DNA of 64,000 bases, from the NCBI GenBank assembly GCA_019637095.1, contig JAHBWG010000003.1, forward strand, positions 124,001 through 188,000, read 5' to 3'. The notes under the pieces were generated by a model. It worked only from the letters and a program-made list of their open reading frames with translations, did not search any database and had not been told where the DNA came from. This document shows, one piece after another, positions 49,563 through 55,896 of this stretch. This DNA comes from Sandaracinaceae bacterium. GTDB taxonomy: Bacteria > Myxococcota_A > Polyangia > Polyangiales > Sandaracinaceae. Each line of letters starts with the position of its first letter. Positions within the stretch are counted from its first letter, which is position 1. The translations under genes and the position numbers were made by a program.

Positions 49563-49607
49563 CGCGTGCGCTCGAGCCCCGCGCGCGAGGCCGCGGGCGG
49601 GCTCTGG

Positions 49608-49613
49608 TATGCT
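49608..49613 (+). promoter_or_regulatory. Possible -10 element before the BTAD regulator
   Basis: TATGCT within TGGTATGCT lies 8 nt before GTG 49622, again the leaderless-type layout. No -35 is evident. Confidence 0.3.
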
Positions 49614-49621
49614 CGCGCGAG

Positions 49622-50354
49622 GTGGCCTCGACCGACCTCACGCTGCTCGTCCTGGGCCCGATCGAGCTCTGCCGCGGCGGCGAGGCCGTACCCCTCCCGC
49701 GCTCGAAGAAGACGCGCGCCATCCTCGCGTTCCTCGCGCTCACCGGGCGCGCCCACCGCCGCGCGCGGCTCACCGAGCTCTTCTGGGACGTCGCGGACGA
49801 CCCGCGCGGCGCGCTGCGCTGGAGCCTCAGCAAGCTGCGACCCCTCTTCGGCGCGGACGACGGCGCCGCGATCGTGGCCGACCGCGAGTCCGTCGCGCTC
49901 GAGGGGCTCGCCTCGGACCTCGCCGAGGTGCGCCGCGTCGCGCGTGCGCCGGGCGGGGCGAGCGTCGCCGAGCTCGAGGCCGCGGTCGCCCACTTCCGCG
50001 GCGAGCCGCTCGAGGATCTCGAGCTCGCAGAGCTCGACGAGCTCAACGCGTGGATCTACGCCGAGCGCGAGGACGCCAGGCGCGCGCACACCACGATCCT
50101 CGGCGAGCTCGTCGCGCGCCACTCGGACGACCCCGAGCGAGCCCTCGGACCCGCGCAGCGCCTCGCCCGGCTGGACCCCTACGCGGAGGGGCCGCGCCTC
50201 GGGCTCGCGCGACACCTCGCCGCGCTCGGCCGAGTCGACGAGGCGCGCCTCGAGCTCGAGGCGCTCTCTCGCGCGCTCGCGGACCTCGGTCAGCGCCCCT
50301 CGCTCAGCGCGCGCGAGCTCGGCACGAGCTCGCGCGACCCGGCGCGCGCGCGCA
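49622..50354 (+). pseudogene. BTAD/SARP-like regulator, N-terminal part (frame broken at 50342-50353)
   Basis: From GTG 49622 the frame gives a winged-helix/BTAD-type N-terminus: LTLLVLGPIELCRGGEAVPLPRSKKTRAILAFLALTGRAHRRARLTELFW, with the RSKKTRAILAFLAL and LRWSLSKLRPLF parts as the OmpR-like DNA-binding features. The bacterial transcriptional activation domain (TPR-like, with ARHLAALGRVDEARLELEAL) follows. After about residue 240 this frame turns into Arg/Ala-rich nonsense. The matching ATPase half continues in the +1 frame. The switch point is a (GC)6 run. Whether it is a true mutation, phase variation or a sequencing error cannot be told. Confidence 0.65.
50342..50353 (+). repeat. (GC)6 run at the frame break
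   Basis: Six GC dinucleotides lie where the reading frame of the regulator must shift by +1 (equivalent to loss of one GC unit). Dinucleotide runs can slip during replication or be misread in sequencing. Confidence 0.6.
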
Positions 50355-50411
50355 GCCGCGCCTGCCGCGGCGCCGCTCGCGCTCGCGCCGGCGCCCGCGG
50401 GACGAACCAGC

Positions 50412-52637
50412 GTGCACGGGCTCGCGCTCGTCGGACGCGACGCGGAGCGCGCGAAGCTGCGCGCGCTGGTCGACGAGGCGGCGGGCGACGGCCGGCTGAG
50501 CGCGGTGCTCGTCACCGGCGAGCCCGGGATCGGCAAGAGCCGGCTGCTGCACGAGCTCCGCGTCGCGACGCGCGCGAAGCGGGGCGTGATCGTCGACGCC
50601 TGCGCGTACGAGGCGGAGCGCCGCCGTGCGTTCGGCCCGATCCTCGACGCGCTCGGTCGTCCCGAGATGCCCGTGGAGGTGCGCTCGCTCGCCAGCGCCT
50701 TCGCGTCCGGGAGCTCCGCGGACGAGCTCACGCGCGAGCAGCTCTTCGGGACGACCGCGGAGGTCCTCGCGGGGCTCGCGGAGCGCGCCCCAGTGACGAC
50801 CTTGATCGTCGACGACCTCCAGTGGCTCGACGAGTGCTCCGCGGAGCTGCTCCACTACCTCTCGCGGGCCCTGCGGCGCGCGCGCGTCGTCCTGGGCCTC
50901 GCCGCGCGCCGCGGCGAGCTCCCCGACGCAGACCACGTCCGCTCGGTCGTCCGAGGGCTCCGGCGCGACGGCCGCCTGTCCGAGCTCGCGCTCGGGCCGC
51001 TCGGCCCCGACGACACCCGCGCGCTCGTCCGGATCGGCGGCGAGCCGCCCGACGCGGATCACGCGGCGGCGCAGAGCGGCGGCAACCCGCTCTTCGCGCT
51101 CGAGCTCGCGCGCGCGGGCGCGGGCGCGGCCGAGACGCGCTCGGTGCGCGCGCTCGTCGCGGATCGCGTCGAGGCCCTGCCCGAGAGCGCGCGCGAGGTC
51201 CTCTCGTGGGCCGCGGTCCTCGGGCCCGTGTTCGATCCGATGGCGGTCGCCGCGCTCTCGGGGCTCGACGCCGAGGCGCACATGCGCGCCCTCGAGGTGC
51301 TCGAGCGCCGCGCGCTGGTCGGGCTCTCCGAGCCCGGAGGCGCCGAGGGCACGCTCGTGTTCGCGCACGGCGTGGTGCATCGCACGGTGTACGCGACGCT
51401 CAGCGACGCGATGCGGCGCCTCATGCACGCCCGCGCCGCGCAGGCGCTCGAGGCGCGCGGGCGGCCGGAGGACGCGACCGAGATCGTCCGTCACGCCGCC
51501 CTCGCAGGCGACGCGGAGCGCGCGGCGCGCGGCTGCCTCGTCGCGGCCGAGCAGCACGTGCGCGTCTTCGCGCGCAAGGAGGCGAGCCGCATCGCCCAGC
51601 GCGGGCTGCGCTTCGCCGCCGAGCTCTCGGAGCCGGAGCGGACGCGCCTGTCCATCGAGCTCCACGCCGCGCTGCTCGCGGCGCGGCGCCGCGGGGACGA
51701 CCTCGCCGCCGCGGCGCCCGCGGTCGACGAGCTCGCGGAGCGCGCCCTCGACCTCGGGCTGCTCGAGCACGCGCGCCTCGCGTTCCACGTCGCGAGCTAC
51801 CTGCGCTGGGAGGACGACCTCCCGCTCGACGCGGCCCGCATCATGATGCGGGCCGAGGAGGTGAGCCGCGCGTCGGAGCCGCGCGAGCGCGCCCTCGCGC
51901 TCGCCGAGGCGGCGCGGTGCCTCGTGCTGCTCGAGCGCGACCTCGCCAAGAGCGAGGCGTGGCTGCGCGAAGCCGACGCGCTGGCCCGACGCGAGCGCCT
52001 CGAGCCGCTGGCGCTCGCGGACGCGCTCGCGATGCTGCACGTACACCGCGGCGAGCTCGAGCAGGCCGAGCCGCTGCTCGTGCGCACGCGCGACCTCGCG
52101 CGGCGCGAGCGCGACCTGCGCACCGAGGCGCGCGCCATCGAGCACCTCGCGCTCGTCGCGCTGCGCCGCGGGATGGTGTTCGACGCCTCGCTCCACGCGG
52201 ACGAGCTCGTCAGGCGCATCGAGCGCGAGCCGCTCGCGCAGAGCGAGGTCGCGTTCGCGCGCGGCCTCGCCGCGGTGACCCGCCTCCACCTCGGCCGCCC
52301 CGGCGCCGAGGAGGAGCTCGCGCAGGCGCTCGACGTGCTCCGGGGCGAGGACGCGAAGCGGCGGATCATCCGGCTCGCCCTCGCCGCGGCGGAGCCCTAC
52401 GCGAGGCGTGGTGACGCGGCCCGCGCGCTCGAGCTCGCGCGCGAGGCGCTCGCCCTCGCCGAGCTCATGGAGCGGCCGAGCGACGTGACGCTCGCGTGCG
52501 CACGCATCGCCCTCGCGAGCGAGGCCCTCGGAGACGGCGCGAGCGCCGAAGCGCACCGCGCGCGGATCCGCGCGAGCCCGCTCGACGCGCTCTCGAGTGA
52601 GGCGCGCGCGGCGGCGACGGAGGTCGGCGGTGCGTGA
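50412..52637 (+). CDS. ATPase/TPR part of a BTAD-type regulator
   Basis: Frame +1 to the preceding part; GTG 50412 is the first plausible independent start, giving 741 residues. It opens with GLALVGRDAERAKLRALVDEA, followed by the P-loop LVTGEPGIGKSRLLHELR, a Walker B strand VTTLIVDDLQWLDE and SGGNPLFALELA, as in AAA/STAND ATPases of the MalT/LuxR and SARP class. The C-terminal 400 residues are TPR-like. With the BTAD part just upstream, this is most simply one protein of about 1000 residues whose frame is broken. It runs 8 nt into the kinase-globin gene. Confidence 0.75.
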   Translation: MHGLALVGRDAERAKLRALVDEAAGDGRLSAVLVTGEPGIGKSRLLHELRVATRAKRGVIVDACAYEAERRRAFGPILDALGRPEMPVEVRSLASAFASGSSADELTREQLFGTTAEVLAGLAERAPVTTLIVDDLQWLDECSAELLHYLSRALRRARVVLGLAARRGELPDADHVRSVVRGLRRDGRLSELALGPLGPDDTRALVRIGGEPPDADHAAAQSGGNPLFALELARAGAGAAETRSVRALVADRVEALPESAREVLSWAAVLGPVFDPMAVAALSGLDAEAHMRALEVLERRALVGLSEPGGAEGTLVFAHGVVHRTVYATLSDAMRRLMHARAAQALEARGRPEDATEIVRHAALAGDAERAARGCLVAAEQHVRVFARKEASRIAQRGLRFAAELSEPERTRLSIELHAALLAARRRGDDLAAAAPAVDELAERALDLGLLEHARLAFHVASYLRWEDDLPLDAARIMMRAEEVSRASEPRERALALAEAARCLVLLERDLAKSEAWLREADALARRERLEPLALADALAMLHVHRGELEQAEPLLVRTRDLARRERDLRTEARAIEHLALVALRRGMVFDASLHADELVRRIEREPLAQSEVAFARGLAAVTRLHLGRPGAEEELAQALDVLRGEDAKRRIIRLALAAAEPYARRGDAARALELAREALALAELMERPSDVTLACARIALASEALGDGASAEAHRARIRASPLDALSSEARAAATEVGGA

Positions 52638-55600
52638 GGACGATCCGACGCTCCCGGGCGCCGGCGCGGACAAGACGTTCTGCGAGCGCTGCGGTCACAG
52701 CGTCTCGCCGAACGCCGAGGCGTGCGGTCGCTGTGGGACGCCGTGCCCCCAGCGCGGGTTCGGCATCGACCCGCGGATCGGGACCCTGGTCGCCGGCGCG
52801 CAGTACCGCGTCCTGCGCCGGCTCGGCGAGGGCGGCTTCGGCGTCGTCTACGAGGTGGAGACGCTCGTCGGTGGGCTGCGCCGCGCGCTCAAGGTCCTCA
52901 ACGCCCGCGGCGCGAGCGATCCCGAGCTGCAGCGTCGCTTCCGCGACGAGGCCTCCATCCTCGAAGAGATCAACCACGCGAACGTCGTGCGCTGCTACGC
53001 CGCCGGCCACCTCGAGCGGGCGGGCGAGCTCTACCTCCTGCTCGAGCTCGTCGAGGGCGTGCCGCTGTGGTCGATCGTCCGCGACCCGGCCACGCGCGCC
53101 CGTCGCCCGCTCGAGCCCCGGCGCGCCGTGCGGCTCGCCAAGCAGATCGCGTCGGGCCTCGCGGCCGCGCACCGCGTGGGCGTGCTGCACCGCGACCTCA
53201 AGCCCGACAACGTCCTGATCGTCGATCCGGGGACTCGCGAGGAGCAAGCCAAGTTGCTCGACTTCGGCGTGGCCAAGGTCCTCGGCACGGAGGCGGAGGC
53301 CGCGGTCAGCTCCGGGATCGTCGGCACGCCGTCCTACATGGCGCCCGAGCAGTTCCAGGAGGGCCGCCCCCTCGACGCGCGCACCGATCTCTACGCGCTC
53401 GGCGCGGTCCTCTACGTGATGCTCACCGGCGCCGGGCCGTTCGACTCGGCCGGCGCCTCCCTCGGGGCGATCTTCGCGGCGCAGGCCCGGCACCGCGACG
53501 CCGGCCCGCTGCCGAGCGCGCTCGTCCCCGCGCTCGCCGAGCACCCCGCGCTCGATCGGCTCGTCGCGGGCCTCCTCGCCTGCGAGCCCGACGTCCGCCC
53601 CTCGTCGGCCGCCGATCTGTGCGCCGAGCTCGCGCGGCTGGAGCACGCGCTCTCCGATCGAGGCGCGGCCGACGCGGGCGAGAGCTTGGTCCGCGCGCTC
53701 GCCGCCGTTCCGGGAGAGCGCGCGTGGCTCGCGCTCCTCGCGCACGTGTCGGCGGGCGGCGAGGCGCGCACGGACTTGGTGGCCGCGGCGGTCCGCGCGC
53801 TCGAGCGGTGGCCGGACGCGCTGCGCCCCGCGCCGCTCGCCGCGCTCCGCTGGGTCGACGGCGGCCCCGAGTCGGCCCTCTGGCCGCTCGTGCGCTCCCT
53901 CGATCTCTCGGGCCGCGAGCTCGAGGACGAGGACGTAGCCCGGCTCGCGAGGAGCCCCGCCCTGTCGACCGTCGCGGCGCTCGACCTCTCCCGCAACGCG
54001 ATCACGAGCGAAGGGCTCGCCGCGCTCGCGTCCTCGCCCCACCTCGGCTCGCTCGAGGTCCTCTGCCTCTCGCGGAACCGGATCACCTCGCGCGGGGTCG
54101 CGGACTTCGCCGCGCGCGCGGGCTGCCTCCGCCTCCGCGCGCTCGAGCTCGCGGAGAACCGCCTCGACGCGGCCGGCGCGCGCGCGATCGCGACGAGCCG
54201 CTTCAGGCTGCGCGTGCTCGACCTCTCGCGCACCGACCTCGGCGCCGAGGCCGCCCTCGCGCTCGCCGCCGGGCCCGCGCTCGAGGGGCTCGAGGTCCTG
54301 CGCCTCGAGGGCAACCGCGTCGGACCCGAGGGGGCGCGCGCGATCGCGTCGGCGCCCTTCGGACGCCTCGCCTCGCTCGAGCTCGCGCGCAACCTGATCG
54401 GCGCAGCGGGCGCGCGCGCGATCGCGAGCGCCCCGTGGCGTGGCGGGCTGGCGCACCTCGGCCTCGCGGAGAACGCGATCGATCGCGACGGCGCGCGGAG
54501 CCTCCTCGCCGCCACGGGCCTCGAGCGCCTCGACTCGCTCGACCTCGGCGGCAACACGCTCGGCGCCGCCGGCGCGATCGCGCTCGCGAGCGCACCCGTC
54601 GCGCGCCGGCTCACGCGGCTCGCCCTCGGCGACGGAGACCTCCGCGAGAGCGGGCTCGCGGCGCTGCTCGGCGCGGGTGGGCTCGTGCGGCTCCGCGCGC
54701 TCGATCTCTCCAACGACGCGCTCGACGCCGACGCGGTCGGGCTGCTCGAAGAGGCGCCGTTCTCGCTCGAGCACCTCACCCTCGATCGCAACCCGCTCGG
54801 GCGCGGAGATGCGCGCGCGCTGGGTCGGGCGCTCGCGCGGCTCGGCGTGCGCTCGCTCGGGCTGAGCGGCTCGGGCCTCGACGGGGTCGGGCTCGCGCGC
54901 GCGCTCGAGGGCGCACGCGTCGTCGCGCTCGACGCGTCGGAGTGCCCGCTCGACGCCGCGGGCGCGCAGGTGCTCGCGGCGAGCGGCGCGCTCGGCCGCC
55001 TCTCGCGCCTGGAGCTCGCCGGCGCGCCCCTCGGACCCGCGGGCGTGGCCGCGCTCCTCCCGCATCTCGAGGAGGTCGCGGAGCTCGCGCTGAGCGGGTG
55101 CGGGCTCGGTGACGAGGGCATCGACGTCGTCGTCGCGCACGCGCCGCGGCTCGCGCGGCTCACCGACCTCTCGATCGCGGGCGACGCGCTCGGGCCGCGC
55201 GCGGTCGACGCGCTCGCCGCGTCGGCGCTGGCACCGCACCTCGCGCGCCTCGATCTCTCGCACGACCGCCTCGGGGACGCCGGGGCCGAGGCGCTCGCCC
55301 GCGCGAGCACGTTCGGCGCGCTGACGACGCTCTCGCTCGCCGGCAACGGCATCGGCCTCGCCGGGACGATGGTGCTCCTCGGCGCGGGAGGGCTCGGGCG
55401 CGTGTCGCGCCTCGACCTGTCGAACAACGAGCGCACCGGTCGCGTGGACGTGTACAGCCTGTCGAGGCAGGCCATCGCGCGCATGGAGGAGAGCTTCGCG
55501 GGCCTCGCGGCGCACGGAGACGCGTTCGCCGACCGCTTCTACGACGAGCTCTTCGCGCGTCACCCGTCCGTGCGCCCGCTGTTCGCCCGGACGGACATGA

Positions 55601-55896
55601 CGCAGCAGAAGCGGCACCTCCTGCACGCGCTGACGCTCGCGATCGACAACCTCCGCAACCCGGCGCTCCTCGAGCAGAACCTGCGCGCCCTCGGCGCGCG
55701 CCACGTCGCGTACGGCGCGCGCGCGCCGCACTACCACGCGGTGACCAGCGCCATGCTCTTCGCGATGGAGGTGACGCTCGGCGACGACTTCACGGAGGCG
55801 CACGCCGCCGCGTGGAGCCGCGGCCTGCGCGCGGTCAGCGAGGTGATGCTGTCCGGCGCGCGCGACGCCACGCTCTCGGTGGCGCACGCGCAGTGA
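52630..55896 (+). CDS. Zinc ribbon-Ser/Thr kinase-LRR-globin fusion protein
   Basis: 1088 residues from GTG 52630, overlapping the previous gene by 8 nt. Residues 18-39 form a zinc ribbon (CERCGHSVSPNAEACGRCG). Residues 60-340 are a Hanks-type kinase: RLGEGGFGVVYE, RALKVLN, LHRDLKPDNVL, LDFGVAK, GTPSYMAPEQ. Residues about 420-935 are leucine-rich repeats of the RNI type (VRSLDLSGRELEDEDVARLA and many like it). Residues 940-1075 are a bacterial-haemoglobin-like globin: FYDELFARHPSVRPLF, MTQQKRHLLHAL with a distal Gln, ARHVAYGARAPHYHAV with the proximal His at 1025. By inference a haem-based gas (O2 or NO) sensor fused to a kinase. Confidence 0.88.
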   Translation: MREDDPTLPGAGADKTFCERCGHSVSPNAEACGRCGTPCPQRGFGIDPRIGTLVAGAQYRVLRRLGEGGFGVVYEVETLVGGLRRALKVLNARGASDPELQRRFRDEASILEEINHANVVRCYAAGHLERAGELYLLLELVEGVPLWSIVRDPATRARRPLEPRRAVRLAKQIASGLAAAHRVGVLHRDLKPDNVLIVDPGTREEQAKLLDFGVAKVLGTEAEAAVSSGIVGTPSYMAPEQFQEGRPLDARTDLYALGAVLYVMLTGAGPFDSAGASLGAIFAAQARHRDAGPLPSALVPALAEHPALDRLVAGLLACEPDVRPSSAADLCAELARLEHALSDRGAADAGESLVRALAAVPGERAWLALLAHVSAGGEARTDLVAAAVRALERWPDALRPAPLAALRWVDGGPESALWPLVRSLDLSGRELEDEDVARLARSPALSTVAALDLSRNAITSEGLAALASSPHLGSLEVLCLSRNRITSRGVADFAARAGCLRLRALELAENRLDAAGARAIATSRFRLRVLDLSRTDLGAEAALALAAGPALEGLEVLRLEGNRVGPEGARAIASAPFGRLASLELARNLIGAAGARAIASAPWRGGLAHLGLAENAIDRDGARSLLAATGLERLDSLDLGGNTLGAAGAIALASAPVARRLTRLALGDGDLRESGLAALLGAGGLVRLRALDLSNDALDADAVGLLEEAPFSLEHLTLDRNPLGRGDARALGRALARLGVRSLGLSGSGLDGVGLARALEGARVVALDASECPLDAAGAQVLAASGALGRLSRLELAGAPLGPAGVAALLPHLEEVAELALSGCGLGDEGIDVVVAHAPRLARLTDLSIAGDALGPRAVDALAASALAPHLARLDLSHDRLGDAGAEALARASTFGALTTLSLAGNGIGLAGTMVLLGAGGLGRVSRLDLSNNERTGRVDVYSLSRQAIARMEESFAGLAAHGDAFADRFYDELFARHPSVRPLFARTDMTQQKRHLLHALTLAIDNLRNPALLEQNLRALGARHVAYGARAPHYHAVTSAMLFAMEVTLGDDFTEAHAAAWSRGLRAVSEVMLSGARDATLSVAHAQ

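Follow-up and report, generated by a model that had tools for sequence, protein, structure and literature searches.

A zinc ribbon, Hanks-type kinase, leucine-rich-repeat and flavohaemoglobin-type globin protein of a Sandaracinaceae bacterium: a candidate haem sensor kinase beside an AfsR-like regulator

Introduction

The known outputs of globin sensors are chemotaxis, cyclic-di-GMP and histidine kinases. The window described here, a stretch of 64,000 nucleotides from the draft genome of a Sandaracinaceae bacterium, contains an open frame in which a Ser/Thr kinase and a globin are joined through leucine-rich repeats (LRRs), and the question raised by this locus is whether the globin senses a gas for the kinase and what the kinase acts on. 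The combination had been regarded as new when it was read from the letters of the DNA. No paper on a Ser/Thr kinase-globin fusion, with or without LRRs, was found among the open PMC papers, which is weak evidence of absence, but many Polyangiales-like genomes carry kinase-globin proteins that lack the LRRs, and the claim that a Ser/Thr kinase with a globin is new has to be narrowed accordingly.

Results

Domain structure of the kinase-globin protein

The gene was found to be a single intact frame without an internal stop, and GGAGG was read in the sequence 6 nt 5' of its GTG start. The domains follow one another in the order of Cys4 zinc ribbon, Hanks kinase, LRRs and C-terminal globin, and the earlier claim that all four lie in one frame was borne out by the Pfam assignments of Pkinase, LRR_6 and Globin. 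The zinc ribbon (PF13240) scored below the Pfam cut-off (19.5 vs 25 bits) but its four Cys are invariant. The features of the gene are as follows.

52630–55896, + strand: zinc ribbon-Ser/Thr kinase-LRR-globin gene; GTG start, 1,088 aa; full-length orthologues exist
52681–52734, + strand: Cys4 zinc ribbon, C18-x2-C21-x10-C32-x2-C35; invariant in the three aligned orthologues of the order
52804–53607, + strand: Hanks kinase domain, aa 59–326; from Pfam and invariant residues
53890–55419, + strand: about 20 ribonuclease-inhibitor-type LRRs of about 27 aa, aa 421–930; from Pfam, periodicity, AlphaFold and Foldseek
55459–55857, + strand: F-family globin domain, aa 944–1076; Y971 B10, F985 CD1, Q993 E7, H1025 F8, Y1035 G5

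The kinase domain matched Pfam Pkinase (aa 59–326, E = 2.5e-44), and its catalytic motifs are complete (K88, E107, HRDLKPDN 187–194, DFG 211–213 and APE 238–240) and identical in the alignment of three members from the order. With Lys, Glu, HRD, DFG and APE all in place, the protein can be classed from its sequence as a Hanks-type kinase. A search of the host genome with this kinase returned about 145 matches.

The LRR part matched LRR_6 (E = 1.8e-22) with a repeat period of 27 residues. AlphaFold folded this part confidently with some 20 beta strands, and ribonuclease inhibitors were the best structural matches of the model in Foldseek; with its period of 27, the modelled arm fits the ribonuclease-inhibitor type, a horseshoe of beta/alpha repeats of 27–29 aa. 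The structure prediction that had been proposed for the protein succeeded for the LRRs and not for its two ends, as the kinase and the globin had low confidence in the full-length model, which was built with two sequences as input and was too poor in these parts to give the contacts or placement of the domains.

The last 140 or so residues had been read as a globin near Vitreoscilla haemoglobin (VHb) with the proximal His at 1025, and this reading held. Pfam Globin (PF00042) was assigned at aa 969–1073 (E = 5.1e-12), the nearest solved structure was that of VHb (1vhb, E = 7.9e-15) followed by HGbRL and neuroglobin, and H1025 occupies F8. The five haem-pocket residues listed above do not vary among the three order members, and of 56 related globins all have His at F8 and Phe at CD1, and 55 have Gln at E7. 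In VHb and flavohaemoglobins, O2 is bound by an arrangement of Tyr B10 and Gln E7. By its PF00042 match, His F8 and Phe CD1 the globin is, at the level of sequence, a member of the F family (VHb/flavohaemoglobin-type). Protoglobin (PF11563) gave no Pfam match in the 1,088-aa protein, and a search of the genome with PF11563 matched three other loci, the window gene not being among them. A classical S-family globin-coupled sensor (GCS) was thus rejected. The globin is covalently joined to a signalling output, the Ser/Thr kinase, as is expected of a GCS; by analogy, the protein is likened to GCSs in its working and stands outside the family that is defined by the S-type (Protoglobin) domain.

Conservation of the four-part architecture

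The same architecture was searched for in other genomes, and all four parts are encoded in four further Myxococcota genomes, in one frame in three of them and split by a frameshift in the fourth. G043 and G017, from other families of the same order, contain the four parts end to end with 54% and 45% identity, respectively; elsewhere in the phylum, G543 has them in 1,075 aa and G504 in two overlapping frames. The frame change of the G504 member (L096:3966–7273) falls inside the LRR part. These three intact members and one split member led to the rejection of a gene unique to the window genome. The family is rare, with members in 3 of the 184 order genomes. When these genomes were searched with a profile built on the ribbon and kinase, family members scored 678–718 bits and any other kinase at most 258 bits, so that the order showed no form of the protein lacking LRR and globin.

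The host genome is a 9.25 Mb draft in 197 contigs and the adjoining gene does hold a frame break, both of which would fit an assembly or sequencing chimera in the window frame. The full-length orthologues in two other families and the two more distant members in the phylum speak against it. Furthermore, the third-position GC is 0.89–1.00 along the entire frame, so no frame change is hidden between the LRRs and the globin, and the LRR/globin junction, where a frameshift would have undone the sequence-only reading, is conserved in other genomes. A frameshift or chimera in 52630–55896 is refuted by the independent genomes together with the uniform third-position GC, and we give this explanation a negligible probability.

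The adjoining regulator

The AfsR-like regulator gene upstream (49583–52637) is split over two frames that change near 50.3 kb, and its parts are as follows.

49628–50308, + strand: partner gene, predicted N-terminal AfsR/EmbR-like part (OmpR-type DNA-binding and BTAD); frame differs from that of the ATPase
50370–52637, + strand: partner gene, ATPase (AAA_16) and C-terminal part; 3' end overlaps the kinase start by 8 nt

The kinase gene had been described as coupled to a BTAD/ATPase regulator. This description is right in outline and, as the pairing is conserved, better founded than was claimed, but the regulator is not one frame in the window. In G001, G006 and G017 the regulator homologue is a single frame, and the break in the window is either a sequencing error or a broken gene. 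A run of GC dinucleotides (about 50345) adjoins the frame change. The BTAD label found no match by Pfam or PDB sequence search and was recovered through structural comparison alone: the model of the N-terminal part (pLDDT 65) resembled the EmbR and AfsR structures with E values of 2.6e-5 to 1.3e-4, and no other structure matched this model below E = 0.03. EmbR is the target of a Ser/Thr kinase. Compared with the layout of AfsR, the regulator has AAA_16 by Pfam, a SARP fold in the pLDDT 65 model only, and a weak TPR signal in a homologue. AfsR consists of SARP, NOD and TPR parts and is phosphorylated by AfsK, though phosphorylation in vitro activates it little (PMC10936776).

In all three genomes of the order that carry the family, a regulator homologue is found next to the kinase gene. 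In G017, it lies directly upstream in tandem and in one frame (48% identity in the N-terminal part and 38% in the ATPase); this copy is shorter, and the best match in that genome lies elsewhere. In G043, the homologue is the immediate downstream neighbour, convergent on the opposite strand, with 52% identity over 635 aa. As the homologues number one in the window genome, one in G043 and three in G017 among thousands of genes, and the gene order has changed, adjacency in three of three is very unlikely by chance. No homologue was found beside the kinase at E ≤ 1e-30 in G543 or G504, the contig of the latter ending just upstream of the kinase.

Globin-kinase fusions in other genomes

At least 20 of the 184 genomes of the order have a confirmed kinase-globin frame; the domains of the fusions were assigned by Pfam for part of the set and by our own profiles or reading of translations for the rest. 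Proteins of the kinase-globin-alpha/beta hydrolase type were found in several genomes, including G001, G006, G015, G142, G147 and G175–G180. The kinase and globin stand alone in G102 and G110, and the two-domain proteins of L088 (480 aa; L088:3751–5193) and L095 (498 aa) have no LRR. Kinase-globin-cNMP-binding-aminotransferase proteins were found in G160 and G163, kinase-2Fe2S-globin proteins in G037, G297 and G298, and globin-PAS-MCP chemoreceptors in G021, G277, G300, G236 and G559.

Several of these loci have features of their own. The kinase-globin-hydrolase genes at L034:6120–8867, L036:6815–9583 and L039:8672–11510 each adjoin a separate single-domain globin gene, and these single-domain globins form their own clade. 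The proteins of about 1400 aa at L092:1595–5854 and L093:1845–6050 combine kinase, globin, cyclic-nucleotide-binding and aminotransferase V domains (Pfam on L092 only). The kinase-2Fe2S ferredoxin-(cyclase-like)-globin proteins at L035:6822–9203, L102:3976–6372, L103:3036–5399 and L104:4110–6965 bring two redox- or gas-reactive centres together with a kinase. The proteins at L089:3590–5578 and L091:3799–5442 have two globin domains each, the rest being unassigned, and are followed by a separate Ser/Thr kinase gene, which is perhaps an unfused version of the kinase-globin pairing.

In the globin tree, the five ribbon-kinase-LRR-globin proteins formed one group with moderate support (SH-aLRT 90) near the MCP-linked globins. 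The kinase-globin-hydrolase set stood apart and grouped with one MCP globin (97), and the kinase-2Fe2S-globin set made a third group. A single origin of all kinase-globin fusions was disfavoured by the AU test (p = 0.039), a borderline value with a constraint chosen after seeing the tree. Since the kinase-linked globins fall in separate groups and a single clade was rejected at this level, Ser/Thr kinases would have acquired an F-type globin independently at least twice and probably three times. The fusion is a recurrent and apparently unreported theme in this order.

Discussion

We somewhat favour the interpretation that the window protein is a haem-globin sensor Ser/Thr kinase acting on its AfsR-like neighbour by the logic of AfsK and AfsR. 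In such a cytoplasmic kinase, the C-terminal F-family globin would hold a haem and bind a diatomic ligand, most probably O2 or NO. The LRR arm would pass the state of the ligand to the N-terminal kinase and might double as a docking surface. The kinase would then phosphorylate the adjoining regulator, with its putative SARP-type DNA-binding part, STAND-like ATPase and C-terminal repeats, and the phosphorylated regulator would alter transcription, as after the action of AfsK on AfsR. That a haem-bound ligand in the globin alters the state of the kinase, directly or via the LRR arm, is reasonably likely, and the chances that the adjacent regulator is the substrate are about even.

The haem-sensing kinase idea is supported by conservation, by the pocket residues and by the repeated fusion of this type of globin to kinases and chemoreceptors. 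The sensor reading is backed by the identity of the catalytic motifs and haem pocket in the three order members, the lack of a globin-less version in the order and the presence of same-lineage globins on MCP domains and kinases, the best available argument for a sensor role being the same globin on PAS-MCP chemoreceptors. The AfsK/AfsR-type reading draws on the regulator homologue adjacent in all three order genomes and on the N-terminal model being nearest to EmbR and AfsR. Counted against them, O2 or NO might be stored or scavenged by the globin with no control over the kinase, the pair was not found in the two distant members, the window regulator is frameshifted and its model modest in pLDDT, the adjacent copy in G017 is shorter and is not the best match in its genome, and AfsR responds little to phosphorylation in vitro.

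Other roles of the globin and of the LRRs were weighed on the same data. The signal might enter at the LRRs, as in plant and animal LRR receptors, with the globin as a redox or haem-occupancy gate or a solenoid cap; the LRRs are the largest part of the protein and are confidently predicted to form a solenoid like that of ribonuclease inhibitor, a fold shared with NLR proteins. We consider this rather unlikely, as other kinase-globin proteins have no LRR and L088 and L095 have only kinase and globin, so that a globin by itself suffices for selection with a kinase. Chemistry by the globin, which would oxidise NO or buffer O2 near the kinase or its targets with the LRRs merely tethering it, would agree with a pocket (Tyr B10, Gln E7 and Tyr G5) like that in VHb and flavohaemoglobins, whose reduced forms have NO dioxygenase activity (review PMC3820574). 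This is unlikely, given that no reductase domain is fused or adjacent, that, by our reading of the alignments, the orthologues have another residue in place of the H23 Glu of flavohaemoglobins, and that chemoreceptors carry the same globins, a setting in which catalysis is harder to explain. A globin that has lost its haem and now serves solely for protein interaction has a precedent among haem-less regulatory globins in RsbR of B. subtilis (PMC4476040), and the distant family member L097 has Leu at E7 and Phe at G5; with His F8, Phe CD1 and Tyr B10 retained in five of five family members, we hold it to be very improbable.

If the haem sensor kinase interpretation is true, O2 or NO would be linked directly to the networks of Hanks kinases, which are numerous in myxobacteria, and also to AfsR-type regulators, which control antibiotic production in Streptomyces. 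It would also mean that a gas-binding domain and a kinase can have an LRR solenoid between them. A simple system for the principle is offered by the kinase-globin proteins of two domains, which are small.

Among the known systems, GCSs (HemAT, YddV/DosC, AfGcHK, GsGCS and the stressosome RsbR) resemble the window protein in a globin joined to a signalling output, with gas sensing as the principle that they would share. Their globins belong to the S family (Protoglobin, PF11563) and are usually N-terminal, whereas the window globin belongs to the F family (PF00042) and is C-terminal; their outputs are MCP, cyclase, phosphodiesterase, STAS and histidine kinase, in contrast to the Ser/Thr kinase with LRRs. 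Among published proteins, the globin-Roadblock/LC7 protein HGbRL of Methylacidiphilum is the nearest relative and was termed a putative globin-coupled sensor (PMC4476040); its single-domain globin, of the type closest to the window globin in the PDB, is likewise fused to a regulatory domain, but HGbRL has a Roadblock/LC7 output, an N-terminal globin and 274 aa without kinase or LRR. For LRRs combined with a globin, the nearest is a protein of Allomyces (PMC3287990), which has ribonuclease-inhibitor-like LRRs followed by a globin as in the window protein, and differs in being fungal, in its truncated (T1) globin and in having no kinase. AfsK/AfsR and PknH/EmbR pair a Ser/Thr kinase with a SARP-type regulator, and the window partner is predicted to have the same N-terminal fold with an ATPase part; AfsK and PknH are without globin or LRR, and their gene order and distance differ from those of the window pair. 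The kinase-globin-alpha/beta hydrolase proteins (L034, L076, L080, L082, L084 and others) have a kinase and F-family globin in one chain like the window protein, but contain no LRR or zinc ribbon, and their globin lies in a clade apart. Taken together, it is an evenly balanced proposition that Myxococcota have repeatedly made flavohaemoglobin-type globins into sensors for Ser/Thr kinases, unlike the described GCSs in both globin lineage and output, and that here such a sensor works via a 20-repeat LRR arm and controls an adjacent AfsR-like STAND regulator.
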